A stretch of 64,000 nucleotides of DNA from positions 62,001-126,000 of the forward strand of contig JAJQBX010000032.1 in assembly GCA_021203065.1 (NCBI GenBank). The letters run 5' to 3'. Positions within the stretch are counted from its first letter, which is position 1, and each line of letters begins with the position of its first letter. The notes under the pieces are model-generated. The model was not told the origin of the DNA, made no database searches, and saw nothing but the letters and a program-made list of their open reading frames with translations. The translations under genes and the position numbers were made by a program. Below are positions 23,426 to 54,580 of this stretch, piece by piece. This DNA is from Oscillospiraceae bacterium (lineage in GTDB: Bacteria > Bacillota > Clostridia > Oscillospirales > Ruminococcaceae).

Positions 23426-23454
23426 TTGCAATTTTGTGCGAATAATGATATAAT
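23426..23454 (+). promoter_or_regulatory. Sigma-A promoter, probable start of the signalling locus
   Basis: TTGCAA at 23426-23431 and a perfect TATAAT at 23449-23454 with 17 bp between them. It is the best promoter ahead of the PP2C gene and would give a transcript starting near 23461. Confidence 0.72.
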
Positions 23455-23617
23455 CAAATGTAACGAAATTTGTCGAAATGTTCATCGTTTCACATGAACA
23501 TGAACACACTTTTCAATATGAAACCAACAATTAGCGCGTAATTTAATATACTCGCAAATACCGCCCTCAGATAAGGGCTTTTGTCGTTATAATCAGAACA
23601 CGAGCGATAAAATAATT

Positions 23618-23648
23618 TTTACAGAGCTGATACTTTCAGCTTTATAAT
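23618..23648 (+). promoter_or_regulatory. Possible second promoter close to the PP2C gene
   Basis: TTTACA at 23618-23623 and TATAAT at 23643-23648, spaced 19 bp. The spacer contains a perfect AGCTGA/TCAGCT inverted repeat that could be an operator. The long spacing lowers confidence. Confidence 0.4.
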
Positions 23649-23688
23649 AGAGATATAATACTGAACTTTCTTGAACGGAGGGATGTTC

Positions 23689-24519
23689 ATGAGATATGAA
23701 ATTCAATACTTCTGCATCAGCCATCAGGGCAATCGCAGACCAAATAATCAAGACAATTTCATATGTAATAACTTATTCAAGCCTATAGACAACACCTTTG
23801 CCGAGCCATTGATCGGTAAGACAAATAATGACATGCCGAGGCTTTTTGGCGTATTTGACGGTCTGGGAGGAGAAGCCTGCGGCGAGATTGCCTCGTATAT
23901 TGCCGCAGAAACCGCCTCACAGTTTGACCTTAGCGGAGACATCCACAGCCGGCTCTATGATTTCTGCATTGTAGCAAACGACAGAATCTGCCAATATTCG
24001 GAAGAAAACGCTGTAGGCACAATGGGAACGACAGCGGCAATGCTTGCTTTTTCTCCCGACGATATATATCTTTGCAATATAGGAGACACCAAGATTTTCA
24101 GCTTTTCGGGAAAGTCGCTTGAGCAGATTTCTGTTGACCACGTTGTGACATCTGCCTATGGCATGAAGCCTCCGCTTTCTCAGGATCTCGGAATTCCGCC
24201 GACTGAGATGATAATTGATCCGTATATCGTCAAAGGAAGATATAATGACGGCGACATCTATCTGATATGCTCTGATGGGCTTACCGACATGGTCGACGTC
24301 GGTGAAATTCAAAGAGTTCTCAGAAAGAATAAGCCGGCACAAGCTTTGGACGCTCTTCTTGAGAAGGCACTTCAAAGTGGCGGAAAAGACAATATTACGA
24401 TGATAATTCTTAAGCTGAAAAGAAGAAAAGCTCCTTTCTGGAAGCGAAAAGCCTACGCAGGCGCATCTGAAGAGGATTCAACAACCGAGGAAATAATGAT
24501 ACCGGAGGGTACTGAGTAA
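23689..24519 (+). CDS. PP2C-family Ser/Thr protein phosphatase
   Basis: 276 residues from the ATG at 23689; GGAGGG at 23677-23682 is well spaced for it and too close for the ATG at 23683. PP2C enzymes remove phosphate from Ser/Thr with two Mn/Mg ions. Metal-binding motifs are intact: RPNNQDN near residue 19, FGVFDGLGGEA near 47, GTMGTTAAML near 108, CNIGDTKIF near 127, CSDGLTDMVD near 194 and GGKDNITMIIL near 234. It ends 2 bp before a Ser/Thr kinase gene, the usual bacterial phosphatase-kinase pairing, and opens the 31-kb locus. It has no membrane segment, so it acts in the cytoplasm, probably on the three kinases and FHA partners encoded downstream (inference). Confidence 0.93.
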   Translation: MRYEIQYFCISHQGNRRPNNQDNFICNNLFKPIDNTFAEPLIGKTNNDMPRLFGVFDGLGGEACGEIASYIAAETASQFDLSGDIHSRLYDFCIVANDRICQYSEENAVGTMGTTAAMLAFSPDDIYLCNIGDTKIFSFSGKSLEQISVDHVVTSAYGMKPPLSQDLGIPPTEMIIDPYIVKGRYNDGDIYLICSDGLTDMVDVGEIQRVLRKNKPAQALDALLEKALQSGGKDNITMIILKLKRRKAPFWKRKAYAGASEEDSTTEEIMIPEGTE

Positions 24520-24521: not shown

Positions 24522-26180
24522 ATGACAGAGAACAGATTAAACGAAGTATGGAATGACTGGAAAGTAACGGGCAATATCGGACAGGGAGCATTTGCCACGG
24601 TTTATGAAGCCACGAACAGCAAAGCTGTAAAATCCGCAATCAAAGCCATAAGTATCCCTGCTTGTGATGAAGAGGGGAATTTGTCAGTTGACCTGAGCGA
24701 CAGAAACGAAAAAATCAGACTTTCGATCGTAGTCAACGAGCTCTGTGAGGAGCTTACGCTTGCAAAAAATATTCAGCACAGTCCGAATACAGTCAGCGTT
24801 TACGACTTCCGGGTTATTGAGAACGAGAGCTCGTGCGGCTGGAATGTGTATGTACGAATGGAATTGCTGACTTCTCTTGGCTCGTATATGTTCACGCACC
24901 GTCTGACCCAGCCGGAAATCATCAAGCTTGGAATAGATATATGCAACGCTCTGATTTCCTACAATCAGACAAGTGCTGCAGTTCACGGAGACATCAAGCC
25001 GGAAAACATCTTTGTGGATGGTTACGGAAACTTCAAGCTTGGCGATTTCGGCATCTTGCGCATCCTGAAAAATCGCATTGGCGACATGCCACAAAAGGAT
25101 TCGATGAGCTATGTAGCTCCCGAAGTTCTGAGAGGCAAGCCAGCCGATTGTCGTTCTGATATATATTCTCTCGGGATAGTACTCTATAAATTACTGAACG
25201 GAAACCGTCTTCCGCTTCTTGATGTCGGAAAGCAGATTATCAGCTCCAGAGAACGACAGAATGCCGTAAACCGCAGGCTGATGGGCGAGAAGCTTCCTGC
25301 GCCGCAAGAAGCAACGCCGGAATTGTCTGAAATCATATTGCAAGCTTGTGCCTATAATCCCGAAGATCGCTTCGCAACTGCTATCGGGCTCAGAAACGCC
25401 CTTGAATCAATAAGCGGTCTTGAACAAAGGCAGGAAGCCGTTCCCGTGCCTTCTGTGACTCCGGCTGCTCCTCAGTATTCTCAGAACGGCGAAGAAACCA
25501 TGTCTGTTAGAAGACCGGGCAGTCCAGCAAACATGCCGCCAGTCAATCAGGGTGGATATACTTTTGGAGTGAGAAGCGCACAGCCCGAAGCTCCTCAAAG
25601 CTCCCCATATGACCAATACATAACCGGCAAACGCCTTTATGAAGAGCATAGTTACGCCGAAGCCCTTAAGCAGCTGCGGCTTGCGGCGGCAAACGGTGTC
25701 GACGACGCCAAATACCTCATCGGCAGGTGCTACTATCGTGGCTATGGAGTGCAGGTTGATTATTCCGATGCCATAGCTTGGTTCAAGGAAGCAGCCCTTT
25801 CCGGTCTGTCTGCGGCTCAGTATTCTGTAGGAATATGCTATTACTACGGTCAGGGTGTGGAGCAGAACAGCGCCGAAGCCATCCAGTGGTTTGCCAAAGC
25901 CGCCGCCAGCGGATATGCTCCTGCGGAGTATTCCTTGGGCGAATGCTACTACAGTGGCATCGGTGTCGAAAAGAACTACGAGAAAGCCATTGCATGGGCT
26001 CGCCGAGCCGCCGACAAAGGCTACTCCAAAGCCCAGAACGCCCTCGGCATCTGCTACTACAACGGTCAAGGCGTGGAGCAAAATCTCCCCGAAGCCGCCA
26101 AATGGTTCCGCCTCGCCGCCCAGACCGGCAACAAATACGCCCAAGCCCAGCTTGAAAAGCTAACTCAACTCGGGTATTAA
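24522..26180 (+). CDS. Hanks-type Ser/Thr kinase with C-terminal Sel1 repeats
   Basis: 552 residues, with no membrane segment, so cytoplasmic. The kinase domain spans ~14-295: glycine loop GNIGQGAFATVYEA, lysine in AIKAIS, catalytic loop HGDIKPENIF at about residue 155 (HGD instead of HRD), LGDFG, and the APE motif in VAPEVLRG. A long insert sits between the lysine strand and helix C. A Pro/Gln-rich linker (~300-360) joins it to at least four Sel1 repeats of 36 residues (for example AQYSVGICYYYGQGVEQN), which bind protein partners. The kinase fold is closest to the receptor kinase at 28873. HGD usually marks a kinase that does not need activation-loop phosphorylation for arginine docking. Confidence 0.92.
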   Translation: MTENRLNEVWNDWKVTGNIGQGAFATVYEATNSKAVKSAIKAISIPACDEEGNLSVDLSDRNEKIRLSIVVNELCEELTLAKNIQHSPNTVSVYDFRVIENESSCGWNVYVRMELLTSLGSYMFTHRLTQPEIIKLGIDICNALISYNQTSAAVHGDIKPENIFVDGYGNFKLGDFGILRILKNRIGDMPQKDSMSYVAPEVLRGKPADCRSDIYSLGIVLYKLLNGNRLPLLDVGKQIISSRERQNAVNRRLMGEKLPAPQEATPELSEIILQACAYNPEDRFATAIGLRNALESISGLEQRQEAVPVPSVTPAAPQYSQNGEETMSVRRPGSPANMPPVNQGGYTFGVRSAQPEAPQSSPYDQYITGKRLYEEHSYAEALKQLRLAAANGVDDAKYLIGRCYYRGYGVQVDYSDAIAWFKEAALSGLSAAQYSVGICYYYGQGVEQNSAEAIQWFAKAAASGYAPAEYSLGECYYSGIGVEKNYEKAIAWARRAADKGYSKAQNALGICYYNGQGVEQNLPEAAKWFRLAAQTGNKYAQAQLEKLTQLGY

Positions 26181-26213: not shown

Positions 26214-27620
26214 ATGAAAAAACTGTTATCTCTAATCTTAGTCATCACTTTAACTCTGACCCTCTTTGCCTCCTGCGGCAAAACAGAAAAAGCCCTGACC
26301 TCGGCAGAGCTCTTGGACCTTGGCGAGAAGTATCTTTTAGACCTTGACTACGAGCAAGCGATTGTTTACTTTAATAAGGTTATCGAGGTTGAGCCAAAGA
26401 ACAAGTCAGCCTATCTCGGCTTGGCAGAAGCCTATGTCGGCTTAGGTGACACCGAATCAGCCATCGACATCCTCGAAACTGCGCTTGATGTCTTTTCTGA
26501 CGACAACACCACCCTCCTTGAAATCTACGCCAGACTTGCCGAAATTGACTCGGGCAACTATGTCTGGTACATAGAACCGGCGCAGGTCTATATCAGCCTT
26601 GACAACACTGACAGCGCAATTATAGTTCTTGAACAAGGCTTGGAAAACGCCTCAAGGACAGAAGAAATCGAAGAACTCCTTTCCGAGCTCTTGGGAGAAA
26701 CCGAGGAGGAAACTGAGGTTGATGAGATAGAGGAAGTAGCAGAAGAAGTTGAAGATGAGCCGATTTTTGTTACTTCTGAAATATACTACTATGATTTTGA
26801 TGGTAGCATTATTGGCTGGTATGAATACGAATACGATTCAAATGGAAATCAGATAAAGGCTGCCTACTATGATTCTGATGGAAATGCTACTTGGTGGCGT
26901 GAATATGAATACGATTCGAACAGTAACTGCATAAAAGAAATCCATTACAATAATCCTGACGGAAGCGTTAGTAACTGGTGGGAAATCGAGTACGATTCAG
27001 ATGGAAACGAGATAAAATCGGTTAACTACGATGGTGATGGAAACATTACCTGTTGGCATGAATACGAATACGATTCAGATGGAAATCAAATAAAGCATGC
27101 CTACTATGATTCTGATGGAAACGTAAGCTCTTGGTCTGAATACGAATACGATTTTAACGGGAATGTGATAGAGACTATTGAATACGGTTCTGACGGCAAT
27201 AGTTACCTGACAAAATATGAATACGACTCAAGCGGTAATAAATTGAAGAGTATAAGCTATGACTCTAATGGAAATATCATCTATTGGTATGAGAGCGAGT
27301 ACGACTCATATGGCAATGAAGTAAAGTGGACCAGTTATAGTCCTGATGGGAGCGTTAGCTGTTGGGATGAATACGAATATGATTCTAACGGGAACATGAC
27401 AGTGTATGCAGAATACGATTCTGATGGGGATAGTTATTTGACAAAATATGAATACGACTCAAATGGGAATCTGACAATGGCATATTACCCTGATTGTACA
27501 TACGAGTACGAGTACGAGTACGAATATGACTCAGTGGGCAAAATAATCGGTCGCAAGATTATGCGTTACAATTCCAGCGGAGTTTTAAGCATCATTACCT
27601 ACCAAACCCGCATCAACTAA
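26214..27620 (+). CDS. TPR lipoprotein with YD-like repeat tail
   Basis: 468 residues from the ATG at 26214, set by GGAGGA at 26201-26206. The signal peptide ends in LFASC with the lipid-bearing Cys at 21. TPR units cover ~27-160 (LDLGEKYLLDLDYEQAIVYF, AYLGLAEAYVGLGD). A Glu-rich linker (~160-185) leads into PIFVTS and then about nine repeats of ~26 residues built on YEYDSNGNxIKxxxYDSDGN. These resemble the YD motif of RHS/teneurin proteins but no toxin or protease core follows. The protein ends in ITYQTRIN. It is predicted to be an outer-leaflet surface protein; its ligand is unknown. Confidence 0.82.
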   Translation: MKKLLSLILVITLTLTLFASCGKTEKALTSAELLDLGEKYLLDLDYEQAIVYFNKVIEVEPKNKSAYLGLAEAYVGLGDTESAIDILETALDVFSDDNTTLLEIYARLAEIDSGNYVWYIEPAQVYISLDNTDSAIIVLEQGLENASRTEEIEELLSELLGETEEETEVDEIEEVAEEVEDEPIFVTSEIYYYDFDGSIIGWYEYEYDSNGNQIKAAYYDSDGNATWWREYEYDSNSNCIKEIHYNNPDGSVSNWWEIEYDSDGNEIKSVNYDGDGNITCWHEYEYDSDGNQIKHAYYDSDGNVSSWSEYEYDFNGNVIETIEYGSDGNSYLTKYEYDSSGNKLKSISYDSNGNIIYWYESEYDSYGNEVKWTSYSPDGSVSCWDEYEYDSNGNMTVYAEYDSDGDSYLTKYEYDSNGNLTMAYYPDCTYEYEYEYEYDSVGKIIGRKIMRYNSSGVLSIITYQTRIN

Positions 27621-27636: not shown

Positions 27637-28848
27637 ATGAAAAAGCTATTATCCCTAATCCTATCCGTCACGCTGATCCTGACGACATTCACCTCCTGTG
27701 AAGCCATCGACAAAGCTTTAGCTTCGACATACCTGAACCTTGGCGAGAAGTACCTTGATGATTTTGATTATGAGAACGCCATAGTCTATTTCAACAAGCT
27801 CATTGACGTTGAGCCTGATGCCGAAGCCGCCTACCTTGGCTTGGCAGAAGCGTATATCGCATTGGATGATATTGATTCGGCGATAGATATTTTAGAGCAG
27901 GGGATAGCGGTGGTTGCTGATGCGGCTGAGCTGGAGGCAAGGCTTGAAGAATTGTCTGATGGACAGGTCGTCAGTGAGGAGCCTACGGAGTATGATGCCG
28001 ACTATAGCAGCCAGTATTCATATCTGTTCACAACCGTCGATGTCGATAATACTGATTTGGGAACGGGCAGCCTTATACTTGTCAACAGCAGCCATCCTCT
28101 TATGAATGAAGTTTCGGAGGATGACCTGATTAATATTTATGGCGAAAAAGCCAGCGATGTAATAGCCACTTTTGCTGATTATGATATTGACGTTTATGAT
28201 GGTGCATTTCTGCTCTCTGATGCTATGGAAGCTACCGAAGAAATGACGTCAGATCACTTGTATTCTGATATGATAATCAGCAAAGGCTATCAACCATATT
28301 CTCATTCAACAGAGATTAATGACGAGGATGTCGATGACTGCTATTATGAGCATCACACAGGTCTTTCAATTGATTTTCAGACCGTTACAATACAGGAGGA
28401 AACCGTAACTGTGGCAGGAATCGAGATGGAGGTTGAAACATGTACATATGGTGTATTCGATGGCACTGGCGAATACTCTTGGGTTCCGGAAAATTGCTAT
28501 AAGTTTGGGTATATACTCAGGTATCCGGAGGGCAAGGAGGAGTATACGCTCGTTGAAAGCCAGCCGTGGCATTATCGTTATGTTGGAATCCCACATGCAC
28601 AGATCATGTATGAATATGACATGTGTCTCGAGGAATATATTTCGTTCATCAAGAATTATACTATTGCTTCAGGCTTCCTGAGTGTAAGTGATGATGACGG
28701 TAATGATTATCTTATTTACTACGTCCCGATGTCAGATGGGGATACCACTACCATTTATATTCCTCTTCAGGATGATGGCGTCACCGCTTATCCTTACGAG
28801 ATTTCAGGAAACAATATTGACGGTTTTATCGTAACTGTCAAGCTCTAA
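27637..28848 (+). CDS. TPR lipoprotein with VanY-type D,D-carboxypeptidase domain
   Basis: 403 residues. Lipobox TFTSC with Cys21, then a short TPR region (~27-100) and an acidic linker. Residues ~135-345 match the M15B/VanY peptidase pattern: EHHTGLSIDF carries His239 and Asp246 in the SxHxxGxAxD position, and ESQPWHYRYVGIPHA carries the Glu and His312 of the second zinc motif. VanY-type enzymes trim the terminal D-Ala from peptidoglycan stem peptides. Here the catalytic domain is tethered to the membrane through the same head as the other lipoproteins of the locus, which ties the locus to the cell wall. The usual Ser of the first motif is replaced by Tyr-Glu, so activity should be tested. 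Confidence 0.8.
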   Translation: MKKLLSLILSVTLILTTFTSCEAIDKALASTYLNLGEKYLDDFDYENAIVYFNKLIDVEPDAEAAYLGLAEAYIALDDIDSAIDILEQGIAVVADAAELEARLEELSDGQVVSEEPTEYDADYSSQYSYLFTTVDVDNTDLGTGSLILVNSSHPLMNEVSEDDLINIYGEKASDVIATFADYDIDVYDGAFLLSDAMEATEEMTSDHLYSDMIISKGYQPYSHSTEINDEDVDDCYYEHHTGLSIDFQTVTIQEETVTVAGIEMEVETCTYGVFDGTGEYSWVPENCYKFGYILRYPEGKEEYTLVESQPWHYRYVGIPHAQIMYEYDMCLEEYISFIKNYTIASGFLSVSDDDGNDYLIYYVPMSDGDTTTIYIPLQDDGVTAYPYEISGNNIDGFIVTVKL

Positions 28849-28872: not shown

Positions 28873-30957
28873 ATGGCACAGGATATTTTACAGAATGTAT
28901 GGTCCGAATGGACGGTAACAAAGGAAATCGGGCGCGGGTCGTTCGGGACGGTTTATGAGGCTGTCAGGTCTGACCACGGAGTGCAGAGCAAGGCGGCGGT
29001 TAAGGTTATAACCATTCCGTCGGACAAGTCTGAGGTGGACTCTTTGCGCTCGGAGGGGATGACCGCCGATGGCACGAGAACCTATTTTATGAACATAGTC
29101 AACGACTTCGTCAGCGAGGTTCAGCTGATGGAGACGTTCAAGGGTATGCAGAATATAGTCAGCGTCGAAGATTATCGTGTAATGGAGAAGAAAGACTCCG
29201 TCGGCTGGGACATCTTCATCAGAATGGAGCTTCTGACTCCGTTCAACACCTACATACAGGGCAAAAAGATGACCGAAAAAGAAGTCATCAAGCTTGGTGT
29301 CGACATCTGCACTGCACTTGAAATCTGTGCGCAAAGAAATATCATCCACCGTGACATCAAGCCGGAGAATATCTTCATCAACGACTTCGGTTATTTCAAG
29401 CTGGGCGATTTCGGTATTGCAAGAAAGCTCGAAAACGTCACCGGAGGTCTTTCGCAGAAAGGCACCTATAACTACATGGCTCCCGAAATAGCCACCGGCA
29501 GGTACTATGACGCCACCGTTGATATTTATTCTTTGGGAATAGTTCTCTACCGGCTTCTCAACGACAACCGTCTTCCGTTCATCACGGAGGAGCAGATGTT
29601 CAACCCAAATGAACGTCAGAAAGCAGTCGACAGACGCTTCCACGGCGAACCCTTGCCTGTTCCGAAGAACGCCTCGCCTGCTATGACGGATGTAATTCTT
29701 AGGGCGTGTGCCCATAATCCGAAAGATCGCTATGCAACCGCTACAGAATTTAAGAATGCGTTGCTTGAAGTAGAGAAGAGCTGTGAAGCAAGTCTCTTAG
29801 ACATCGATTCGAAAGCCGCTGAAGTTGCTGACACTGCACCCAGTGATATAAATACAGATAATACACCTGTTCCGGAGACAGTTGTGGAAGCTGATGATAA
29901 GACCGAACTTATAGATAAAACCGGGCTGGTTGAGCCCGTCCCGCTCCCAAAGGTAATAAACAATGCCCCCAAAAAGCGGAAAAAGAAGCCAGTGGTGATA
30001 GCGGCAGTCTGCGTTTGCCTTGTGGCAGTGATAATAGTTGGAATTGCACTTGTGGCAAGTGGTGGCTTGTCCATCTGTACTGCGTATCTTGACAATGATT
30101 GCATTCGCAACCCGGTATTTGACAAAACTGAAATTACTGAAATAGTTTTTCTTGATTCTCTTTCAACCTATCCAAGTGGTGCGTGGGACTTCTCAACAAA
30201 CAAGGATTACAGCGTCATAGGCTGGCTTGATGGCACATGTCTCTATGTTGCCGGAGATGGAGGAGTAATAGCCGGCAAAGACATGAGCAATATGTTTTCA
30301 GGCTACACGTCACTTACCAGCATCAGTTTCAAAGGCTTTGATACCTCAAATGCTACCAACATGAGTGGTTTGTTCGAGAATTGCAGTTCTCTCACATCGC
30401 TCAGTTTGGACAGCCCAAGTTCAAAGGGCTTCGTTACTTCAAAAGTAACTGATATGAGCAGCATGTTCTACAATTGCAGTTCCCTCACGTCGCTTAGCCT
30501 CAGTAGTATGAATACTTCGAAAGTTGTCAATATGAGCAACATGTTCAATAATTGTAGCTCTCTCACGTCTCTTTATATAAGTAAATTTAACACCTCAAAA
30601 GTAACTGATATGAGCTATATGTTCTGCGGCTGTAGTTCTCTCACATCTCTCTATGTTAGCTATGATACTTCAAGTGTAACTAATATGAACAGTATGTTTA
30701 GATATTGCAGTTCTCTTACATCTCTTTCTGTAAGCAGCTTTGACACTTCAAATGTTACCGATATGAGTTATATGTTTGCCGATTGTAGTTCTCTTGAGTC
30801 TCTTAATGTAAGTAATTTTAGTTTTAATTCTTCTGCAGTCACTGATATGAAATATATGTTCTACAACTGTTCGTCTCTGACAACCCTAACCATGTTCGAA
30901 TACAACACATATAGTGACAACACTAAGAACATGTTTAAAGGCACCATTTTCGAATAA
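28873..30957 (+). CDS. Receptor-like Ser/Thr kinase with BspA/DUF285-repeat ectodomain
   Basis: 694 residues. The kinase domain is ~16-300: IGRGSFGTVYEA, AAVKVI, HRDIKPENIF with His159, LGDFGIARK, and APEIATGRYYDATVD. A linker (~300-370) leads to a single membrane segment at ~373-396. The outside part begins with the module LDNDCIRNPVFDKTEITEI...GWLDGTCLYVAGDGG, then about seven repeats of the form NCSSLTSLxxSxFDTSxVTDMSxMF, ending in NMFKGTIFE. The same ectodomain occurs on lipoproteins at 41931, 45954 and 47623. All kinase catalytic residues look intact. It takes the place that PASTA kinases hold in other Firmicutes, but with a leucine-rich-like sensor. Confidence 0.92.
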   Translation: MAQDILQNVWSEWTVTKEIGRGSFGTVYEAVRSDHGVQSKAAVKVITIPSDKSEVDSLRSEGMTADGTRTYFMNIVNDFVSEVQLMETFKGMQNIVSVEDYRVMEKKDSVGWDIFIRMELLTPFNTYIQGKKMTEKEVIKLGVDICTALEICAQRNIIHRDIKPENIFINDFGYFKLGDFGIARKLENVTGGLSQKGTYNYMAPEIATGRYYDATVDIYSLGIVLYRLLNDNRLPFITEEQMFNPNERQKAVDRRFHGEPLPVPKNASPAMTDVILRACAHNPKDRYATATEFKNALLEVEKSCEASLLDIDSKAAEVADTAPSDINTDNTPVPETVVEADDKTELIDKTGLVEPVPLPKVINNAPKKRKKKPVVIAAVCVCLVAVIIVGIALVASGGLSICTAYLDNDCIRNPVFDKTEITEIVFLDSLSTYPSGAWDFSTNKDYSVIGWLDGTCLYVAGDGGVIAGKDMSNMFSGYTSLTSISFKGFDTSNATNMSGLFENCSSLTSLSLDSPSSKGFVTSKVTDMSSMFYNCSSLTSLSLSSMNTSKVVNMSNMFNNCSSLTSLYISKFNTSKVTDMSYMFCGCSSLTSLYVSYDTSSVTNMNSMFRYCSSLTSLSVSSFDTSNVTDMSYMFADCSSLESLNVSNFSFNSSAVTDMKYMFYNCSSLTTLTMFEYNTYSDNTKNMFKGTIFE

Positions 30958-43259: not shown

Positions 43260-43595
43260 ATGTTTTACAATTGTTCATCGCTCACATCCCTAGACATTTC
43301 AAGCTTTGATACTTCAAATGTCACAGACATGAGTTTTATGTTTTGCGATTGTTCATCGCTCACATCCCTTGACATTTCAAGTTTTGATACCTCAAATGTC
43401 ACAGATATGAGCCTTATGTTTTGCGATTGTTCATCGCTCACATCCCTTGACATTTCAAGCTTTGATACTTCAAATGTCACAGACATGAGTTTTATGTTTA
43501 GAGGTTGTTCCTCACTTACATCTCTTGATATATCTAACTTTGACACAACCAATGCCGACACCTCATATATGTTTTCCGGCACCATCTTCGAATAA
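43227..43595 (+). repeat. Tandem 78-bp coding repeats (BspA-type units) across the stop codon
   Basis: Units begin at 43227, 43305, 43383, 43461 and 43539 in perfect 78-bp register, each starting TTTGATAC or TTTGACAC. Those at 43305, 43383 and 43461 are nearly identical. At offset 30 the codons are TAG, TTT, CTT and TTT, so the stop replaces an aromatic or aliphatic residue. Confidence 0.88.
43260..43595 (+). CDS. C-terminal remainder of the interrupted BspA-repeat lipoprotein
   Basis: 111 codons in the same frame as the gene at 41931, directly after its TAG. It begins with the Met that is the conserved MF of the repeat, has no ribosome-binding site and no signal peptide, and ends in YMFSGTIFE, matching the tails of the proteins encoded at 28873 and 45954. 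It is better seen as the lost tail of the upstream protein than as a separate gene. Translation could only come from read-through or reinitiation on the adjoining ATG. Confidence 0.7.
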   Translation: MFYNCSSLTSLDISSFDTSNVTDMSFMFCDCSSLTSLDISSFDTSNVTDMSLMFCDCSSLTSLDISSFDTSNVTDMSFMFRGCSSLTSLDISNFDTTNADTSYMFSGTIFE

Positions 43596-45774: not shown

Positions 45775-45930
45775 ATGAGTTTTACACCGGGTGAACTTCT
45801 CTTTTACGGAGGACTTTTAGGCATAGCCATCACAGCAATCGCCACCATCATTGTAATAATAGTCCTTGCAGGCAGCCGCAAGCGTCTGAGAAATAAGCTC
45901 AACGACGAATACGGCGTCTCGCCGAAGTGA
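45775..45930 (+). CDS. Small single-pass membrane protein
   Basis: 51 residues from the ATG at 45775, set by AAGGAGGAA directly upstream. One helix spans ~9-33 (FYGGLLGIAITAIATIIVIIVLAG) and a basic cytoplasmic tail follows (SRKRLRNKLNDEYG). It sits 13 bp after the TPR kinase gene and may be a partner of that kinase. The layout resembles the N-terminal part of the FHA membrane protein at 52489. No known family is recognised. Confidence 0.7.
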   Translation: MSFTPGELLFYGGLLGIAITAIATIIVIIVLAGSRKRLRNKLNDEYGVSPK

Positions 45931-47622: not shown

Positions 47623-49113
47623 ATGAAAAAGTTATTATCCCTAATCTTAGCAATCGTTCTTACTATGGCATTGTTTACGTCTTGTGCAAGGGTGGACAAG
47701 GCGTTGGTGTCGATGTATCTGGATTTTGGTGAGAAGTATCTTTCGGATATGGAGTATGAAAAGGCTATCGTCAATTTTGAGAAGGTTATTGAGGTTGATC
47801 CGAAGAATTCCCGGGCTTATATCGGAATTGCGGAGGCTTATGAGGGGTTGGGGGATACCGATTCTGCTATTGAAACGCTTGAAGATGCCCTTGATGTTTT
47901 TTGGGATGATGAATATACACAGGTTGATATACTTGAAAAGCTGATTGAAATCGATCCGACAGAAGCGGAGTGGTATCTTGAGCTTGCTCAGATATACATA
48001 AACTGGGGAGAAGAGGACAGAGCAATCGAAATACTTAAGCAGGGCGTGGAGAATGCTTCCGATAAAACCGAGCTCAGAAAGCTTCTGGCAAGCTTTACCG
48101 GCGTCAGCATAAGCGGCATCACGGCTTCAGTCAGCGGAAATGTCCTTGACAATAATATGATTCGAAACTTCGTTTATTCCACCAAGAGCGATATAACCGA
48201 GATTGACTTTCTGGATTCAACAGAAGATGCTCCCGAAGATGCTTGGGACTTCTCATTGAGCGGCGACGGCAGTGTTCTGGGATGGCTCGATGGAACACAT
48301 CTCTATGTGGCAGGCGACGGCGGCATAAAAGCGGATGAGGATGCCAGAGGAATGTTCAGATACTCTTGGATTGATGAAAATGGCGAACAGCATGGTTGCT
48401 CCTCGCTTATACAAATCAACTTCAATAATTGCTTCGATACTTCCGCTGTTACCGATATGGCTTATATGTTTGATCATTGCAGTTCTTTGACGTCGCTCGA
48501 CTTGAGCTGTTTTAACACCTCTAAGGTTGAAAACATGGCGGCGATGTTTGACTCGTGCAGTTCTCTTACTTATCTCGACATCTCAAGCTTCGACACGTCA
48601 AACGTCACAAGCATGGACTCGATGTTCGGCGCATGCAGTTCCCTGACATCACTTGACCTGAGCCATTTCAATACCTCAAATGTCATTGATATGGACTACA
48701 TGTTTGAGTTTTGTAGCCTGCTCACATCTCTTGACCTGACAAGCTTTGACACATCAAAGGTCCTCTATATGAGGGACATGTTCTTCTATTGCGAATCGCT
48801 TGAATCTCTCGATCTGAGCAGCTTCAATACTTCACGAGTTACAACGATGAGCAACATGTTCTATTGCTGTGAGTCGCTTAAATCTCTCGACCTGAGTAAC
48901 TTCAATACCCGCAATGTTACCAGCATGTATTGCATGTTCTACGGTTGTACATCTCTTGAAACCGTAGATGTGAGCAGCTTTAACACATCGGAAGTTACGA
49001 CAATGTACCGCATGTTCTGCAGATGCAGTTCCCTCACGGAGCTTGACCTGAGCAATTTCAACACCAGTAGAGCGGACACTTCCGGCATGCTTGACGGCAC
49101 TGCATGGGGATAA
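47623..49113 (+). CDS. TPR lipoprotein with BspA/DUF285-repeat domain
   Basis: 496 residues from the ATG at 47623 (AAAAAGGAGC upstream). Lipobox LFTSC with Cys21. TPR head ~27-160 with LDFGEKYLSDMEYEKAIVNF, a more diverged form. The pre-repeat module reads NNMIRNFVYSTKSDITEIDFLD...GWLDGTHLYVAGDGG. About eight BspA repeats follow (NCFDTSAVTDMAYMFDHCSSLTSLDLSCFNTSK). The end is MLDGTAWG instead of MFxGTIFE, so the last repeat has drifted. Codon use is more GC-rich through the repeats than in the genes at 41931 and 45954, suggesting an older or separately acquired copy. Confidence 0.87.
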   Translation: MKKLLSLILAIVLTMALFTSCARVDKALVSMYLDFGEKYLSDMEYEKAIVNFEKVIEVDPKNSRAYIGIAEAYEGLGDTDSAIETLEDALDVFWDDEYTQVDILEKLIEIDPTEAEWYLELAQIYINWGEEDRAIEILKQGVENASDKTELRKLLASFTGVSISGITASVSGNVLDNNMIRNFVYSTKSDITEIDFLDSTEDAPEDAWDFSLSGDGSVLGWLDGTHLYVAGDGGIKADEDARGMFRYSWIDENGEQHGCSSLIQINFNNCFDTSAVTDMAYMFDHCSSLTSLDLSCFNTSKVENMAAMFDSCSSLTYLDISSFDTSNVTSMDSMFGACSSLTSLDLSHFNTSNVIDMDYMFEFCSLLTSLDLTSFDTSKVLYMRDMFFYCESLESLDLSSFNTSRVTTMSNMFYCCESLKSLDLSNFNTRNVTSMYCMFYGCTSLETVDVSSFNTSEVTTMYRMFCRCSSLTELDLSNFNTSRADTSGMLDGTAWG

Positions 49114-49126: not shown

Positions 49127-50575
49127 ATGAAAAAGTTATTATCATTCATCTTGGCAATCGTTCTTACCGTGACCCTCTTCACTTCCTGTGCCGAACCCGC
49201 CGAGGCACTTACATCTATATATCTGAATCTGGGCGAGAAATACCTCACCGACCTGAACTATGAAGAAGCCATCGTCTACTTCAATAAAGTAATCGAAGTC
49301 GAGCCGAAGAATGCCCGTGCCTATCTCGGCTCAGCGGAGGCTTATGTTGCCATGGGCGACATCGAAAGTGCAATAGCCATTCTCGAGCAAGGTATCGAGG
49401 TCGTCGACGATCCGACAGAGCTTCAGGCGATGCTTGCGGAGCTGCTTGGAGAGAACGAGGCAGAGGACGATCTGCCGGAGGATGAGGTTATTCAGGAAGA
49501 ACAAGAGGAAGAAGAAATCCCCGAAATCACCGCCGAGGACATCGGAGCAGCGATAAATGAAGCAAGCTTGTTTGCATGGAACTGGTTCTGGGACAATCAG
49601 CATACAGACAAGACTGACACGATTATAGGACCGTATGGGAATGGCTACTATACATACGAGCGTGTTTCCGAAGAGGGCATAACAACAGTTGACGATGTAT
49701 TGGCACTGACACAGCAGTATTTCACAGCAGATATTGCAGAGTATATAGTTGGTTACAAAGAGTGGATAGAGCAGGATGGTGTTCTGTATGTTTCTGCTAC
49801 AGAAGGGCTTGGAGGACCGGGCGATCCGAATTACTATGAAATTTATGCTGAGAAAACAAGCGACACATCATACAATATCACGCTATATGAGTGTTATAGC
49901 GAGGATGATAAGTATCAACGGAATTTCACCTATAGCTACGTCGACGGATATTGGATATTCGATACTATTCTGTATTGCCCACAAGAAATACCTGTATATG
50001 TGCTGACAGAGCCGCTTGACGAGGAAACAGAGGAAGAAATAGAGTCTGAGAGTGATAGCGTGCCATTCCATGTTCAGGCTTACATGCAGGATACTGTCAA
50101 TTGGTCTTGGAACTCAGTCGGAGCATTTACAAGTGGTGTTCTTGGCGATACCCTTACAATAAATTGGACTTATGATAGGAATTCATTTGATGGATATTTG
50201 ACTGTTCAAAACACTTCCAATTGGACGATGAATCCGATATTTGCGATTTCAGTTGGGGATTGTGCCTATCTTCAACTTCCAGAAGAGGCAGAAATAGGCG
50301 ACACTGGCGATTCAGCTGTATATACATTCACATATTCTGACATCACTATTACTGCTACAGGTTATGAAGATGTGGTCATTTCTGGTGGAACTGCGGAGAA
50401 AAGATTTACAGTCAAACAGGAGAATGGATATACATCCGGCACATCCGTTGCTATCGACCTTCTTTCGGAAATCCTTGAACAGACGGGAATTTCTCTTTAC
50501 CAGTTTGCAAACGAGTATCTCCCGAATTTGACAAACATTTCATTTGAAATAACATTTGTTGATTGGAAGCCTTGA
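49127..50575 (+). CDS. TPR lipoprotein with unassigned C-terminal domains, possibly IseA-like
   Basis: 482 residues from the ATG at 49127 (TAAGGAG at the stop of the previous gene). Lipobox LFTSC, Cys21. Short TPR head (~27-105) and a long acidic linker. Residues ~145-300 have an NTF2-like or IseA-like pattern: TTVDDVLALTQQYFTADIAEYIV, DGVLYVSATEGLGGPGDPNYYEI. IseA-type proteins inhibit peptidoglycan D,L-endopeptidases in Bacillus; the match here is by eye only and weak. Residues ~315-482 are a beta-rich domain I do not recognise (VNWSWNSVGAF, DTLTINWTYDR). Both parts should be outside the cell. Confidence 0.72.
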   Translation: MKKLLSFILAIVLTVTLFTSCAEPAEALTSIYLNLGEKYLTDLNYEEAIVYFNKVIEVEPKNARAYLGSAEAYVAMGDIESAIAILEQGIEVVDDPTELQAMLAELLGENEAEDDLPEDEVIQEEQEEEEIPEITAEDIGAAINEASLFAWNWFWDNQHTDKTDTIIGPYGNGYYTYERVSEEGITTVDDVLALTQQYFTADIAEYIVGYKEWIEQDGVLYVSATEGLGGPGDPNYYEIYAEKTSDTSYNITLYECYSEDDKYQRNFTYSYVDGYWIFDTILYCPQEIPVYVLTEPLDEETEEEIESESDSVPFHVQAYMQDTVNWSWNSVGAFTSGVLGDTLTINWTYDRNSFDGYLTVQNTSNWTMNPIFAISVGDCAYLQLPEEAEIGDTGDSAVYTFTYSDITITATGYEDVVISGGTAEKRFTVKQENGYTSGTSVAIDLLSEILEQTGISLYQFANEYLPNLTNISFEITFVDWKP

Positions 50576-50604: not shown

Positions 50605-52473
50605 ATGAAAAAACTATTGGCTATAATCTTGGCAATCTTGATAACCCTGACCACGTTTACTGCGTGCGCCGCAACTGATCAGGCGTTGGTGTCGATGTAT
50701 CTGAATCTGGGAGAAAAATATCTCCTCGATCTGGATTATGAGCAGGCTATCGTCTACTTCAACAAGGTCATTGAGGTCGAGCCCCGCAATTCCCGGGCTT
50801 ATATGGGAGCGGCGGAAGCATATGTCGGCTTAGGGGACACTGAGTCTGCCATCAATCTTTTGAAGACCGCTCTTGAGGTCTTTTCAGACGATGAAGAAGT
50901 CACCATAGAGCTTCTTGAAATGCTCATCGAGATAGACCCGGAAACTTCTGAATGGTACATAACCCTTGTGGAAATTTACGAGGCAAAGGGTGATTCGGAT
51001 TCAGCCATAGCCATTCTCAGCAACGCTGTTGAGGCGGTAACTGACGGTGACAGCTTAACTGTGCTTCTTGAGAAGCTTATCGACTTAGATCCTACTAATG
51101 TTAACTGGTATCTCAAGCTGGCACAGGTTTATGTTGACAGTAGCGACAGGACTTCTGCCATCTCGATTCTTCGTCAAGGCATGGACGTTGTCGGCAACGC
51201 CAAGACCCAGCTCTATGACAAGCTCATAGAAATTGACTCCGACACCATCCAGTGGTATTTCGAGCTTGCAGGCGTCTATGAAGACCAGAGCAACATCCCA
51301 TCTGCCGTCGACACCTTAGAGCTCGGCTTGAACAACTTCGAAGATGATGATACAAAGATTGACTTCTCAGAAGAGCTCATCGAAATCGACGAAACCAACG
51401 CCGAATGGTACCTGACGATTGCATACATCTACATCGACCAGAACGATACTGATGCCGCAATTGCCATCCTCCGTGAGGGCTTGGAAAAGGCATCGGATAC
51501 GACGGAGATTGAAGCTTTGCTGAATCAACTTGCACCGGATACGTCGGGGCTTGTTACTACGAGCAGTCGTACATATAATGAAGATGGCACTTTAACTTAC
51601 TCATATGATTTCAGTGCAGATGGTGGGAATTCAACTTATACTATCAGTAGTACAGATTCTGATGGTGTAACGTATACTCAGACTTTCACATCGGAGTATG
51701 ATTCAAACGGTAATGAGGTGAAATCAACAAATAAAAGTATTAGTTCTGATGGTAATACAAATACGATTATCACAACATATGAATACGACTCTAATGGTAA
51801 CATGACAAAAGAAGAGTATAATAGTGTTTCGTCTAGCGGTGAAACATATTCGAGCACATCAACATATGAGTATGATGCGAATGGTAATAAAATCAGCGGT
51901 ACACAAGTCTTCAACAGTAGAGGTAGCACTTACGAATACGAATACGAGTATGAATATGATACTAATGGAAAGCTGACAATGGAGCTCCGAAGGGAAACAG
52001 ACGGTTCTTATTACTATAAGACTGAATATGAGTATGATTTGCATGGTAATGTCAGCCAAGAAACTGAAACTTCTGCTTACATTCATGAGGCGTATTCTAG
52101 CACTAGCATTACTTATAAAAACTATGAATATGAATATGATGCAAATGAAAATATTACAAAGATTGACGTGAGTTATTCGTACTATGATAGTTCTGAAGGT
52201 GGTAGTCATTGGGTTGGATTCTTTGATGAAAATGGCTATGACCATCCATATGGATCTTGGACACAGGAATACGAATATGATGAACAAGGTTCGACAATCA
52301 GCAGGACATATACGGATCGTTCTACTGATGGAACTGTAATCACTAATACATACATTATCGAGCGCGAATACATATATGACGATACTGGCAGGATCAGTAG
52401 GTACATTATCACTGAATATTATGCCAACAGCGGTAACGTACACAGCGTAAGAACCATGGAACGGATTGACTAA
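50605..52473 (+). CDS. Lipoprotein with extended TPR array and YD-like repeat tail
   Basis: 622 residues, the longest lipoprotein of the set. Lipobox TFTAC with Cys21. The TPR region is expanded to ~27-310, with several units ending in EIDxxxxxWY (LLEMLIEIDPETSEWYITLVEIYEAKGD), so the head has gained about four units over its relatives. The tail (~315-622) has YD-like repeats with Ser/Thr-rich variations (YEYDSNGNMTKEEYNSVSSSG) and ends in VRTMERID instead of YQxxxN. GTGAGGAC lies upstream as ribosome-binding site. Confidence 0.83.
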   Translation: MKKLLAIILAILITLTTFTACAATDQALVSMYLNLGEKYLLDLDYEQAIVYFNKVIEVEPRNSRAYMGAAEAYVGLGDTESAINLLKTALEVFSDDEEVTIELLEMLIEIDPETSEWYITLVEIYEAKGDSDSAIAILSNAVEAVTDGDSLTVLLEKLIDLDPTNVNWYLKLAQVYVDSSDRTSAISILRQGMDVVGNAKTQLYDKLIEIDSDTIQWYFELAGVYEDQSNIPSAVDTLELGLNNFEDDDTKIDFSEELIEIDETNAEWYLTIAYIYIDQNDTDAAIAILREGLEKASDTTEIEALLNQLAPDTSGLVTTSSRTYNEDGTLTYSYDFSADGGNSTYTISSTDSDGVTYTQTFTSEYDSNGNEVKSTNKSISSDGNTNTIITTYEYDSNGNMTKEEYNSVSSSGETYSSTSTYEYDANGNKISGTQVFNSRGSTYEYEYEYEYDTNGKLTMELRRETDGSYYYKTEYEYDLHGNVSQETETSAYIHEAYSSTSITYKNYEYEYDANENITKIDVSYSYYDSSEGGSHWVGFFDENGYDHPYGSWTQEYEYDEQGSTISRTYTDRSTDGTVITNTYIIEREYIYDDTGRISRYIITEYYANSGNVHSVRTMERID

Positions 52474-52488
52474 CAGGAGGTAATTGAA

Positions 52489-53073
52489 ATGGACTTAGGA
52501 TTGATTGTGGCTTTGGGATGTATTGTTCTGGCGGTAGTGTTGATCGTTGTGGCGGTGGTGATACTGGTGGTGTCGCTCAGGAAGAAGCCGGAGAAGAATG
52601 TGCAGAAGACGGTTAAGAGTGGGGGATATGTTGCTTCTAATGATGAGAGAACTGAGGTTGTGAGGCAGCCGGCTTCTAATGGGATTACTTATGAGCTCAG
52701 GCTTATCAGCCTCAATAGCCTTAACAAGACTTGGACTTTGAATGTCTCCGGAGAGATTCTTGCCGGGCGGTCGGAGTATGCTTCGCTCCGATTTGAGGAC
52801 AAGAGCGTTTCGAGGGAACAGTTCAGGATCATAAGTACTGCTTCCGGACTGGCAGTCGTCCACTGTGGGAGCACAAACAAGACGATGGTCAATGACCAGT
52901 TTGCGGAAAAACCGGTGCTTATTAATGGCGGGGATGTTATCAAGTTCGGCAGGGAAGCAGTGAGAGTTGACTATGTCCAGCCGTATAATCCACAACCGTA
53001 TCAGCAGCCAGTGTACGATTCCGGATGGCAACAGCCGACAATTACCGAAACTCAGCACTGGGTGAGACATTAA
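52489..53073 (+). CDS. Membrane-anchored FHA-domain protein
   Basis: 194 residues. One N-terminal helix spans ~3-29 (LIVALGCIVLAVVLIVVAVVI), then a basic linker and an FHA domain at ~75-165: ILAGRSEYASLRF (the GR), SVSREQFRI (the SxxH-like strand, here Ser-Arg-Glu-Gln) and HCGSTNKTMVN (the N/T loop). The C-terminus is Gln/Pro/Tyr-rich. FHA domains bind phosphothreonine, so it is a likely docking site for phosphorylated kinases or other partners at the membrane. CAGGAGG precedes the ATG. Replacement of the usual His by Gln may alter binding. Confidence 0.88.
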   Translation: MDLGLIVALGCIVLAVVLIVVAVVILVVSLRKKPEKNVQKTVKSGGYVASNDERTEVVRQPASNGITYELRLISLNSLNKTWTLNVSGEILAGRSEYASLRFEDKSVSREQFRIISTASGLAVVHCGSTNKTMVNDQFAEKPVLINGGDVIKFGREAVRVDYVQPYNPQPYQQPVYDSGWQQPTITETQHWVRH

Positions 53074-53095
53074 GACTTATAGAAAGGTTATCGTT

Positions 53096-54580
53096 ATGAA
53101 AAGAATATTTGCTGTTATTCTGTCGGTGGTTCTGATGATGACGCTCTTCACTTCCTGTGCAGAGGTCAATCAGGCTCTTTCAAAAATATATCTTAATATC
53201 GGAGAGAAGTATCTGACAGATCTTAACTATGAAGAGGCTATCGTCTACTTCAATAAGCTCATTGAAGTAGAGCCTAAAAATTCCCGTGCCTATCTGGGAT
53301 TGGCGGAGGCTTATGTCGCCACCGAAGATGTTGAAGCCGCAATAGATATTCTGGAAACTGCGCTTGATGTATTTTTGGATGATGAGGACATAAGAATAGA
53401 GATTCTCGAAAGGCTTATAGAAATTGATCCGACGGAGAGCGAGTGGTATCTCCAGTTAGCTCAGATATATCTTGACAGGGGAGATACCGACAAGGCAATC
53501 GAAATCCTTGAGCAGGGAGTCATAAGCGTCGGCGCAGACGGCAATTCCGATATACTGGAACTGCTTGAAGAGCTTGATCCGTCATACATAAACCGTTTCA
53601 CGACACTTACCGGTATGGTCTGCAAAGCCTCTGACAGAACTACACCTATCGAGGGCGCAACTATTACTATTTATAATAGTGATTCAGATGCAGTGTATGC
53701 AAGCTGTGAGTCGGATTCAGTCGGAAGCTATTCAGTCTATCTCTTGGTTGACGAATACCGGGTGGTCATTTCAGCTGATGGGTATATAGCTTTTGACGAT
53801 TATATCGAGCTATCCGAGAGTGAGGTTACATATTCAGAAACATATCTGATGGTTCAGGGAAGCGAGAGCTCCTCCGGAACTGCAACCGGCACAATCACCA
53901 GTGCCCTGACGGGGCTTGGCGTTGAGGAGGTCACCCTCACAGTCCGTTCAGGCTGGAACAACTCCGACTCCGGCGACATTATCGCCACAACTGTGACTGA
54001 TGAAAACGGCGACTACTCGCTTACTCTTCCCATAGGCAATTACACCTTGCTTGCTGAAAAGGACGATTATATTTCCGCAACCGTCAACTTGGTCGTCCAG
54101 AGCGGCACAACTTCGTCCCAGAACGGCTCGATTTCTCCTGTACTTTCCGGAGACAGCTTCAGAGTTGTTCTGACATGGGGAGAGAATCCAAGAGACCTCG
54201 ATTCTCACGTTGTGGGAACCCTGTCAAGTGGTTCTACTTTCCATGTTTACTATTCATATAAGTCCCAGTATGACGGAATTACCGAGGTCTGCAACCTTGA
54301 TGTCGACGACACTTCAAGCTACGGTCCGGAAACCATCACCCTTAATCTCACGACCTCCGACCCGTATTACTACTACGTCTATCTCTATGCCGGAGACGGC
54401 ACTCTTGCCACCTCCGAAGCAAAGGTCAGCGTCTATCAGGGCAACACTCTTGTCGCCCGGTTCAACGTCCCGACCGATCAGGGCGGCGGCAGATACTGGA
54501 ACGTTTTCGCCATCGTCGACGGTCAGATCACCGTCAGAAACACCGTTACCAGCAGTGCAGACGTCTCATACGCCGAATGA
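53096..54580 (+). CDS. TPR lipoprotein with carboxypeptidase-regulatory-like and YfaP-like domains
   Basis: 494 residues, the last gene of the locus. Lipobox LFTSC with Cys21 and TPR head ~27-165 (LNIGEKYLTDLNYEEAIVYF). Residues ~175-255 and ~260-345 are two CarboxypepD_reg/Cna-B-like beta-sandwiches (LTGMVCKASDRTTPIEGATITIY; ATGTITSALTGLGVEEVTLTV). Residues ~355-490 match the YfaP/DUF2135 pattern (FRVVLTWGENPRDLDSHVVG, YYYYVYLYAGDG, RYWNVFAIVDG). All domains would be outside the cell. The LTWxxxPxDLDSHV motif carries acidic residues that bind calcium in relatives. No terminator follows directly; an inverted repeat lies 46 bp downstream. Confidence 0.85.
   Translation: MKRIFAVILSVVLMMTLFTSCAEVNQALSKIYLNIGEKYLTDLNYEEAIVYFNKLIEVEPKNSRAYLGLAEAYVATEDVEAAIDILETALDVFLDDEDIRIEILERLIEIDPTESEWYLQLAQIYLDRGDTDKAIEILEQGVISVGADGNSDILELLEELDPSYINRFTTLTGMVCKASDRTTPIEGATITIYNSDSDAVYASCESDSVGSYSVYLLVDEYRVVISADGYIAFDDYIELSESEVTYSETYLMVQGSESSSGTATGTITSALTGLGVEEVTLTVRSGWNNSDSGDIIATTVTDENGDYSLTLPIGNYTLLAEKDDYISATVNLVVQSGTTSSQNGSISPVLSGDSFRVVLTWGENPRDLDSHVVGTLSSGSTFHVYYSYKSQYDGITEVCNLDVDDTSSYGPETITLNLTTSDPYYYYVYLYAGDGTLATSEAKVSVYQGNTLVARFNVPTDQGGGRYWNVFAIVDGQITVRNTVTSSADVSYAE

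Follow-up and report, generated by a model that had tools for sequence, protein, structure and literature searches.

A 31-kb clostridial phosphorylation locus with a tandem-FHA ABC exporter and lipoproteins that track a single Hanks kinase

The stretch of DNA that we analysed (the window; 64,000 nucleotides of contig JAJQBX010000032.1 from an Oscillospiraceae bacterium, genome G000) contains, from position 23671 to 54580, a single run of genes on the forward strand, the strand of all features given below. The run encodes a PP2C phosphatase, three Hanks kinases (K1, K2 and K3), an FHA-FHA-ABC exporter (FHA2-ABC), a 428-residue helical protein, three zinc-ribbon proteins, a 51-residue membrane protein, a separate FHA protein and 12 lipoproteins, one of them split by an in-frame TAG. 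Open reading frames, protein families and coordinates confirm the head-to-tail gene set that an initial annotation had described in this 31-kb locus, as well as its closely spaced genes: 18 of the 22 gaps between listed ORFs are under 50 bp, and the widest, of 192 bp, contains the gene of the 51-residue protein. For several genes the start was placed 3' of that of the longest ORF. The upstream unit is closed by a terminator-like stem (14 pairs, 23332..23363), after which comes a promoter-like site, TTGCAA-17-TATAAT (23426..23454), at the position where the initial annotation begins the locus; by its match to the consensus it is a candidate operon start. Among the sites listed, likewise consensus matches only, there is no forward-strand terminator-like site of more than 6 pairs from 23426 to 54580; weaker promoter-like sites (10-11/12) occur inside the locus, and the only 12/12 site (54646-54674) lies ahead of the next gene. 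Large surface proteins border the locus on either side (17751-21728 and 54807-59000).

The first gene encodes a PP2C (PPM) Ser/Thr phosphatase (23671..24519, start uncertain) that matches PF00481 (E 7e-9) and, below that model's cut-off, NF033484 (E 2e-36). Each of the three kinases has a different C-terminal region. K1 (24522..26180; Pkinase E 3e-31) ends in Sel1 repeats; K2 (28873..30957; Pkinase E 2e-44) continues through a transmembrane segment, assigned by eye, into a PARCEL (DUF285) ectodomain (TIGR02167, E 1e-45, 152 bits against a cut-off of 30); and K3 (43611..45761; Pkinase E 1e-31), a kinase of the type VII secretion type, continues through its membrane segment into a TPR ectodomain (44676-45758). 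The 51-residue single-pass protein (45775..45930) directly follows K3, a position that its gene also holds in G001, G025, G004, G082, G103 and G301. The PASTA repeats that mark the ectodomain of PrkC/Stk1 kinases were not matched in K1–K3 at E<=0.01. In G025, K2 retains its kinase domain (91%), and its ectodomain consists of TPR and three NPCBM domains instead of PARCEL. A domain scan that took 59 of 65 listed kinase regions (70 kinase ORFs) found TPR_14 in 21/59 and NPCBM in 17/59 C-terminal regions of core kinases.

The exporter (32251..34581) is a half transporter that carries two FHA domains, an ABC ATPase and an ABC-2 membrane domain in one chain, the arrangement of Rv1747-type exporters, and the best sequence match of its FHA part is an Rv1747 FHA structure (6cah, E 2e-8). 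The gene abutting it encodes the all-helical protein of 428 residues (34582..35868), which the initial annotation had called unrecognised and which indeed has no match in Pfam (E<=0.01), NCBIfam (E<=0.001) or PADLOC (E<=1e-5); the PADLOC search, for components of anti-phage defence systems, matched only the kinases and the ATPase, and returned nothing at that threshold for PP2C, ZnR-b, the lipoprotein LPg or the FHA protein. Of the zinc-ribbon proteins, ZnR-a (35986..36486) is a membrane protein with a C-terminal zinc ribbon scoring below cut-off (E 1e-4), ZnR-b (36507..37550) has five zinc ribbons and ZnR-c (41191..41829) joins a zinc ribbon to an extracellular domain through a membrane segment assigned by eye. 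The separate FHA protein (52489..53073) has a transmembrane segment and is FhaB/FipA-like, below the cut-off of the FhaB model; its gene is also found in G001 (67% identity).

We examined FHA2-ABC in 69 loci, after ten of 79 (L134-L143) had been dropped because the match was confined to part of the transporter. In 62 sequences (the window's protein and those of the 61 loci with a full-length one), the phosphothreonine-binding core positions of both FHA domains, which we take to be the FHA signature residues, are intact in 59-62, and the ATPase residues are intact in all 62. Within 10 kb, a kinase is present in at least 51 of the 69 loci and a PP2C in at least 37, both counts being lower bounds since many contigs end inside this distance; the 18 loci with no kinase within 10 kb likewise include some cut by contig ends. 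In G002 the transporter is solitary.

Each of the 12 lipoprotein genes encodes a hydrophobic signal with F-[AT]-[SA]-C at its end. The count of twelve given in the initial annotation holds for genes; TPRs are found in eleven rather than all, and the gene that starts at 41931 is cut short by an in-frame TAG. These eleven have the signal peptide and TPR in common and differ in their outer halves. DUF2963 follows the TPR in LPb (30974..32215) and LPc (37619..39199), is joined by RHS-like repeats in LPa (26214..27620), and occurs in LPd (40056..41153), the one lipoprotein that lacks TPR; LPi (50605..52473) combines many TPRs with RHS-like repeats. PARCEL repeats form the outer half of LPe (41931..43259, with the repeat frame resumed after the TAG at 43260..43595), LPf (45954..47606), both recognised through Pfam DUF285, and LPg (47623..49113; TIGR02167, E 2e-89, 292 bits, cut-off 30). 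LPclec (39215..40006) bears a C-type lectin domain (PF00059, E 1e-18), LPh (49127..50575) a weak IseA-like domain below cut-off (E 0.005) and LPj (53096..54580) carboxypeptidase-regulatory-like domains. LPvan (27637..28848) strongly matches the VanXY/VanY D,D-peptidase family (4f78, E 6e-22), and relative to that family it does not conserve the catalytic position of what we presume to be the second active-site motif. Across the eleven TPR lipoproteins the first 105 residues are on average 64% identical, against 29% from residue 130 onward (global alignment), and from one syntenic locus to another a C-terminal type may give way to a different one. In architecture, then, the lipoproteins are exchangeable, as had been claimed.

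The locus is found again in two congeneric genomes, G001 and G025, and its joint form (exporter plus K3/lipoprotein parts) is retained at two chromosomal sites; the genes are linked in relatives, and the scattering that the initial annotation named as its refutation is not what is seen. In the genus (31 genomes), TPR lipoproteins (E<=1e-15) are co-inherited with K3, occurring in exactly the four genomes that have a K3-type kinase (ectodomain E<=1e-10) and in 0/27 others; because G000, G001 and G025 inherited a single common locus, this match amounts to about two independent events. The four genomes contribute 13 (G000), 12 (G001), 10 (G025) and 1 (G004) matches, and 34 of these 36 lie inside a locus with K3. 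The other two, on contig C14 of G000, stand away from any kinase in the 34 kb read, and we counted them, like the absence of TPR from LPd, against K3 partnership. G002 has FHA2-ABC and lacks both K3 and TPR lipoproteins, G020 likewise lacks both and has a full EssC, and G004 has K3 and one TPR lipoprotein beside EssC with no FHA2-ABC match. The lipoproteins track one kinase, K3; neither exporter nor EssC predicts them.

A uniform test, from which the loci of G000, G001 and G025 were excluded, identified an anchored TPR protein in 11/15 K3-type loci, in 2/47 loci with other kinases (both being the window's locus cut before K3) and in 0/18 loci without a kinase (Fisher 2e-7 as counted). The profile used was derived from the genus' own lipoproteins, with one kinase row included by mistake. 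Leaving out four loci found through FHA2-ABC, the proportion is 8/11. Of the four K3 loci that failed, G301 and L114 yielded a TPR-like protein only when the BLAST threshold was relaxed, and G647 and G613 have no anchored TPR protein in the K3 locus, the G613 stretch stopping at a contig end. In relatives, genes for a small membrane protein and for a TPR protein anchored in the membrane frequently come after that of K3, and K3-type kinases adjoin either type VII EssC or FHA2-ABC, the latter in four other contigs (Blautia, Egerieimonas, Lachnospiraceae and Bariatricus) that were ascertained by the FHA2-ABC search itself. Genomic support for a pairing of K3 with TPR lipoproteins is good, and the comparison with relatives suggests that the lipoproteins may be swappable outside partners of this kinase.

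The K3 neighbourhood resembles the type VII systems T7SSe and T7SSj, for which a membrane kinase TsxD (TsjD having a predicted C-terminal TPR domain), a PPM phosphatase TsxF, an FHA protein TsxJ and a small single-TM component have been described (Garrett et al. 2024, PMC11217815). K3 is likewise a membrane kinase with a C-terminal TPR domain and its homologues lie near EssC, for which matches over cut-off stand at distances from K3 of 1.8 to 6.6 kb in G004, G103, G514 and G613; the phosphatase and separate FHA component are matched at family level, and the 51-residue protein conserved after K3 is a candidate counterpart of the single-TM component (TsxH, TsxK). The window differs in that its exporter is an ABC half transporter; in its genome the best EssC/TsxC match reaches 130.8 bits against a cut-off of 778.4, and WXG100 gave no match at E<=0.001, with a positive Bacillus subtilis control. 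The word lipoprotein does not occur in the consulted portion of PMC11217815, and the initial annotation had held that known kinase, phosphatase and FHA clusters, such as those with type VII secretion or cell-wall PASTA kinases, lack a lipoprotein set like this one. For type VII secretion this needs correction: kinase/FHA clusters linked to it carry one or two such TPR proteins per locus in G004, G103 and G514, and the set in the window is therefore an expansion of an existing partner.

We propose, with a probability of about 0.5, that the locus encodes a phosphorylation system of two modules, built around a split receptor kinase, in which the lipoproteins would be exchangeable K3 co-receptors feeding an FHA-gated exporter. 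One module would comprise the exporter, a PP2C and kinases of its own, and the tightly coupled 428-residue partner; the other would be the kinase block that accompanies type VII secretion (kinase-TM-TPR, 51-residue membrane protein and FHA), present here without the type VII apparatus. Both modules recur among relatives. The TPR half of a lipoprotein may dock, TPR to TPR, on the extracellular TPR ectodomain of K3, while the variable halves (C-type lectin, VanXY-like, PARCEL and RHS-like) would bind different envelope or environmental ligands. Ligand-bound lipoproteins could then shift K3, and K2 with its own PARCEL ectodomain, towards threonine phosphorylation; docking of phosphothreonine to the tandem FHA domains would open or assemble the exporter for a putative exported substance, and PP2C would reset the system. 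The link from lipoproteins through kinases to an FHA transporter, as initially annotated, is partly supported by these results: the conserved residues of FHA2-ABC and its frequent kinase and PP2C neighbours agree with it, but the lipoproteins follow K3 and not the exporter.

The same genes could be read with the lipoproteins as outputs, an array of surface-binding proteins or adhesins displayed under kinase control, whose TPR half is a spacer or an assembly scaffold monitored by K3. The binding or adhesin-like nature of the variable halves, the surface proteins flanking the locus and the two kinase-free TPR lipoproteins of C14 all fit such an array, which by itself leaves unexplained why TPR lipoproteins in the genus are confined to genomes with K3-type kinases and why K2, K3 and other core kinases have ectodomains of similar kinds; we consider it rather unlikely. 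The family may instead have grown by duplication and PARCEL-type shuffling within a conserved operon, with incidental linkage and most copies having no signalling role. For PARCELs (TIGR02167), both horizontal spread and spread inside a genome have been reported (PMC2996958), and the same repeat occurs in K2, LPg, LPe and LPf, fused in the window to a kinase or to a TPR lipoprotein half; because these repeats shuffle between genes, their sharing by K2 and lipoproteins may not mean a common function. One copy has an in-frame stop, another in G001 appears frame-split, and between G000 and G025 LPg is 89.9% identical in DNA, compared with 84.5% for K3 and 73.9% for the 428-residue gene. Against such incidental growth, three genomes keep 10 to 13 copies, most of them open, and other taxa keep one or two anchored TPR proteins beside K3 without expansion; we consider this origin improbable.

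Nor do we think it probable that the locus consists of two unrelated neighbours without cross-talk, an exporter operon of the PknF/Rv1747 kind (23671-35868) and a block of K3 and lipoprotein genes (37619-54580). Each part can stand separately: in G055, PP2C, three kinases and FHA2-ABC occur with no TPR lipoprotein match, and in G004, K3 and a TPR lipoprotein occur beside EssC with no FHA2-ABC match; yet LPa, LPvan and LPb sit in the exporter half, so that lipoprotein genes are mixed into both, the joint locus persists at two chromosomal sites, and the four contigs from the FHA2-ABC search, ascertained as they are, again bring K3-type kinases and FHA2-ABC together.

What bacterial Hanks kinases sense is, to our knowledge, established mainly for PASTA kinases and a few others. 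On the co-receptor reading, and more tentatively than for that reading itself, we suggest that a shared TPR adaptor on interchangeable lipid-anchored co-receptors could let one kinase, K3, respond to many ligands, with recombination renewing the ligand-binding ends, and that a module found elsewhere with type VII secretion would here have come to serve a tandem-FHA ABC exporter. If true, the question of sensing would become open to direct test in a kinase whose adaptor surface is fixed and whose natural co-receptors differ in how they bind. The occurrence of one kind of phospho-module with type VII secretion as well as with an FHA-bearing ABC exporter gives a concrete lead on how such exporters may be gated.

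PknG, a kinase of actinobacteria, is soluble and has its TPR in the cytoplasm. Elements of the proposed scheme are known from other systems. In Mycobacterium tuberculosis the FHA-bearing ABC exporter Rv1747 shares an operon with the Hanks kinase PknF, as the window's exporter shares a run with Hanks kinases; in the account drawn on (PMC3908365) that operon has two genes, to which the window adds PP2C, three kinases, the 428-residue partner and twelve lipoproteins. TPR-bearing bacterial Ser/Thr kinases were listed in 2005, with Clostridium acetobutylicum among the hosts, in a paper whose consulted portion does not contain the word lipoprotein (PMC1262709). For the PknG-GlnX-GlnH-OdhI system of actinobacteria, a path from lipoprotein sensor to TPR kinase to FHA effector has been proposed (PMC8546545), the same logic as we propose for the window, although we claim no homology and, as that work describes it, the membrane link there is a separate protein, GlnX, and the lipoprotein is single.

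The genome containing the window comprises 2.36 Mb in 36 contigs, and the main genes of the locus at 23671-54580 all lie on the + strand. Assigning families by Pfam, and additionally by NCBIfam for ten proteins, gave the following order: a PP2C phosphatase; K1 (a Hanks kinase with Sel1); the lipoproteins LPa and LPvan; K2 (kinase-TM-PARCEL, PARCEL being the DUF285 repeat); LPb; a half transporter with two FHA domains and an ABC ATPase (FHA2-ABC, the exporter); a 428-aa protein; the zinc-ribbon proteins ZnR-a and ZnR-b; LPc, LPclec and LPd; ZnR-c; LPe, which is split; K3 (kinase-TM-TPR); a 51-aa membrane protein; LPf, LPg, LPh and LPi; an FHA protein; and LPj. Intergenic gaps are below 50 bp in 18 of 22 cases, and by eye most genes are preceded by ribosome-binding-like sequences. 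A promoter-like site is found at 23426, with a terminator-like stem of 14 pairs just before it, and from there to 54580 the + strand listing shows no terminator-like stem above 6 pairs. The sole 12-of-12 promoter-like site is at 54646, with weaker ones inside the locus. The gaps and these sites fit a single long candidate operon. Large surface proteins are encoded on both flanks (17751-23270 and 54807-59000; VWA/TSP3 repeats, ricin-lectin/C39-like, and a 1397-aa protein with no match in Pfam). In the congener G001 the corresponding site has other genes in place of the upstream surface-protein genes, and the downstream surface protein is 40% identical over partial length only.

All twelve lipoproteins start with related signal sequences whose last residues are F-[AT]-[SA]-C, followed in eleven by TPRs. 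The first 105 residues of these eleven share a mean identity of 64% (range 52–90%; 55 pairs), against 29% from residue 130 onward (global alignment, 55 pairs). The variable halves comprise DUF2963/RHS-like repeats, PARCEL, C-type lectin, VanXY-like, carboxypeptidase-regulatory-like and weakly IseA-like parts. That of LPvan has as its nearest solved relative the D,D-dipeptidase/carboxypeptidase 4f78 (E 6e-22), with a catalytic position of that enzyme family not conserved. Loss of that position in this family should cost catalysis, not binding, and LPvan would thus be expected to have lost the former rather than the latter. LPclec contains EPN and WND residues, as is usual in calcium-dependent mannose-type lectins. 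Homologues of the K2 ectodomain form the variable halves of LPe, LPf and LPg (44–57% identity, 272–374 aligned positions). LPe (41931-43595) is interrupted by an in-frame TAG, beyond which the PARCEL repeat frame resumes. Elsewhere in the window's genome, two more TPR lipoproteins of this family (contig C14, 18978-21185) lie in a 34-kb stretch in which no kinase, FHA or exporter was seen.

The locus is present in two congeners, G001 and G025, with the PP2C, kinases, exporter and 428-aa protein 67–93% identical to those of the window and the zinc-ribbon and FHA proteins 57–84% identical; lipoprotein number and type vary among the three. The window and G001 loci occupy the same chromosomal site, bounded by dnaE-to-TRAM genes on one side and beta-galactosidase on the other, and the G025 copy lies at a different site, downstream of a locus for the type VII secretion ATPase EssC. 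Between window and G001, K1 and PP2C (74–76% identical) are more diverged than FHA2-ABC (93%) and K3 (91%), and eleven flanking proteins are 79–99% identical. No K2 counterpart was found in the G001 locus; in G025 the K2 kinase domain is 91% identical, with TPR and three NPCBM domains in place of PARCEL, and a zinc-ribbon-TM protein with a PARCEL ectodomain is also encoded. LPg (47623-49113) shares 89.9% DNA identity with its G025 counterpart, closer than K3 or the 428-aa gene, hinting at a possible recent exchange. One TPR lipoprotein of G001 (C52, about 91263-92725) is apparently frame-split, a 246-aa ORF overlapping a 267-aa repeat-bearing one, and the G025 FHA2-ABC gene (C23, 134972-137290) has one in-frame TAG.

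Among the 31 genomes of the genus analysed, TPR lipoproteins occur in exactly four, precisely those with K3. The window's genome and G001 combine K3 and lipoproteins with FHA2-ABC and show no EssC above the cut-off; all four are present in G025; K3 occurs with one lipoprotein and EssC in G004, where FHA2-ABC gave no match. G002 carries FHA2-ABC and G020 carries EssC, each with neither K3 nor lipoproteins. The lipoproteins therefore follow K3, not the exporter. Since three of the four K3 genomes have one inherited locus, this represents about two independent events within the genus.

K3 loci across the phylum offer further support for this pairing. The K3 ectodomain is rare: 5 of 291 genomes at class level encode it, and a search with a 10-row profile found it in 7 of 398 at phylum level (own genome included in both). 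Its neighbourhoods frequently contain FHA, PP2C and zinc-ribbon proteins, along with a TPR protein whose anchor is a lipobox, a TM helix or a TM helix combined with a zinc ribbon. By a uniform test, an anchored TPR protein was present in 11/15 K3 loci, 2/47 loci with other kinases and 0/18 kinase-free loci; the two positive non-K3 loci (L065 and L121) are the G001 and G025 copies of the window's locus, cut before K3. EssC lies 1.8–6.6 kb from K3 in G004, G103, G514 and G613 (TIGR03928 bits 934, 1167, 826 and 1328, respectively; cut-off 778), and FHA2-ABC is near K3 in L109, L113, L114 and L125, loci ascertained through FHA2-ABC. Close homologues (48–52 aa) of the 51-aa membrane protein follow K3 in G001, G025, G004, G082, G103 and G301, as do short TM genes in G315, L113, L114 and L125 and a longer one in G489; no small TM gene was recognised after K3 in G514, G643, G443, G613 and G647, and the L109 sequence stops at the K3 kinase.

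Scanning genome contigs with an FHA2-ABC alignment gave 79 loci, of which 69 were kept, mostly titled as metagenome-assembled Oscillospiraceae, Lachnospiraceae or Clostridia and many named for animal gut sites. Hanks kinases occur within 10 kb in 51 of the 69, PP2C in 37, 428-aa homologues in 18 and TPR lipoprotein-like genes in 5, contig ends frequently truncating that range. The 428-aa gene directly follows the exporter gene in 17 of the 18, at a distance of -1 to 3 bp in 15 of those, and its product is therefore probably a partner of the exporter; homologues are encoded in 10 of 60 relatives searched. G055, of a different family in the same order, has a cluster of PP2C, three kinases, a 368-aa protein and FHA2-ABC, in which no TPR lipoprotein match was found. 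Core phosphothreonine-binding residues of both FHA domains are kept in 59–62 of 62 FHA2-ABC proteins, and the checked ATPase residues are invariant. A crude hydropathy test placed a TM segment C-terminal to the kinase domain in 53 of 70 kinases. The 59 C-terminal regions scanned matched TPR_14 (21), NPCBM (17), BspA-type LRR (3), PASTA (3) and DUF2963 (1), so that many core-kinase ectodomains consist of TPRs plus a variable domain, resembling the lipoproteins. In G002, G006, G020, G025 (C20), G028 and G030, a 53–55% homologue of the 428-aa protein is convergent to a second, distinct cluster with several kinases, PP2C and FHA proteins (families checked in G002, where one kinase includes a PARCEL part). 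In G032 a 27% homologue immediately precedes a 918-aa protein whose start, by the look of its sequence, resembles a kinase glycine loop.

The K3 TPR ectodomain and the lipoprotein TPRs should both lie outside the membrane, a topology that agrees with a split receptor. In this simplest reading, the lipoproteins would offer ligands to K3 via TPR contact, K3 and K2 would phosphorylate threonines on the inner side, the exporter's tandem FHA domains would read these phosphothreonines and PP2C would erase them. The order lipoprotein to kinase to FHA parallels that proposed for PknG-GlnX-GlnH (PMC8546545), and the proposed step from kinase to exporter parallels Rv1747-PknF, for which modulation of an FHA-ABC exporter by a kinase is likewise a published proposal (PMC3908365). 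K3 is a kinase of the kind found in the type VII systems T7SSe and T7SSj, which have kinase, PPM phosphatase and FHA components, as well as a TPR domain in TsjD, and some of which Garrett et al. suggest are regulated by phosphorylation (PMC11217815). The extracts of that paper available to us describe no TPR lipoprotein partner and no form of the module with an FHA-ABC, and the terms 'lipoprotein' and 'ABC transporter' occur 0 times each in its text. Our literature search found no account of the window's locus. Its parts are already known; the literature searched does not describe the way they are paired, their expansion to twelve lipoproteins or the deployment of the K3 block alongside an ABC exporter. 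Another cluster in the window's genome (C15, 350000-369990), which may be a different secretion variant, combines an FtsK_SpoIIIE ATPase (1232 aa) and a Hanks kinase (525 aa) with proteins lacking a family assignment.
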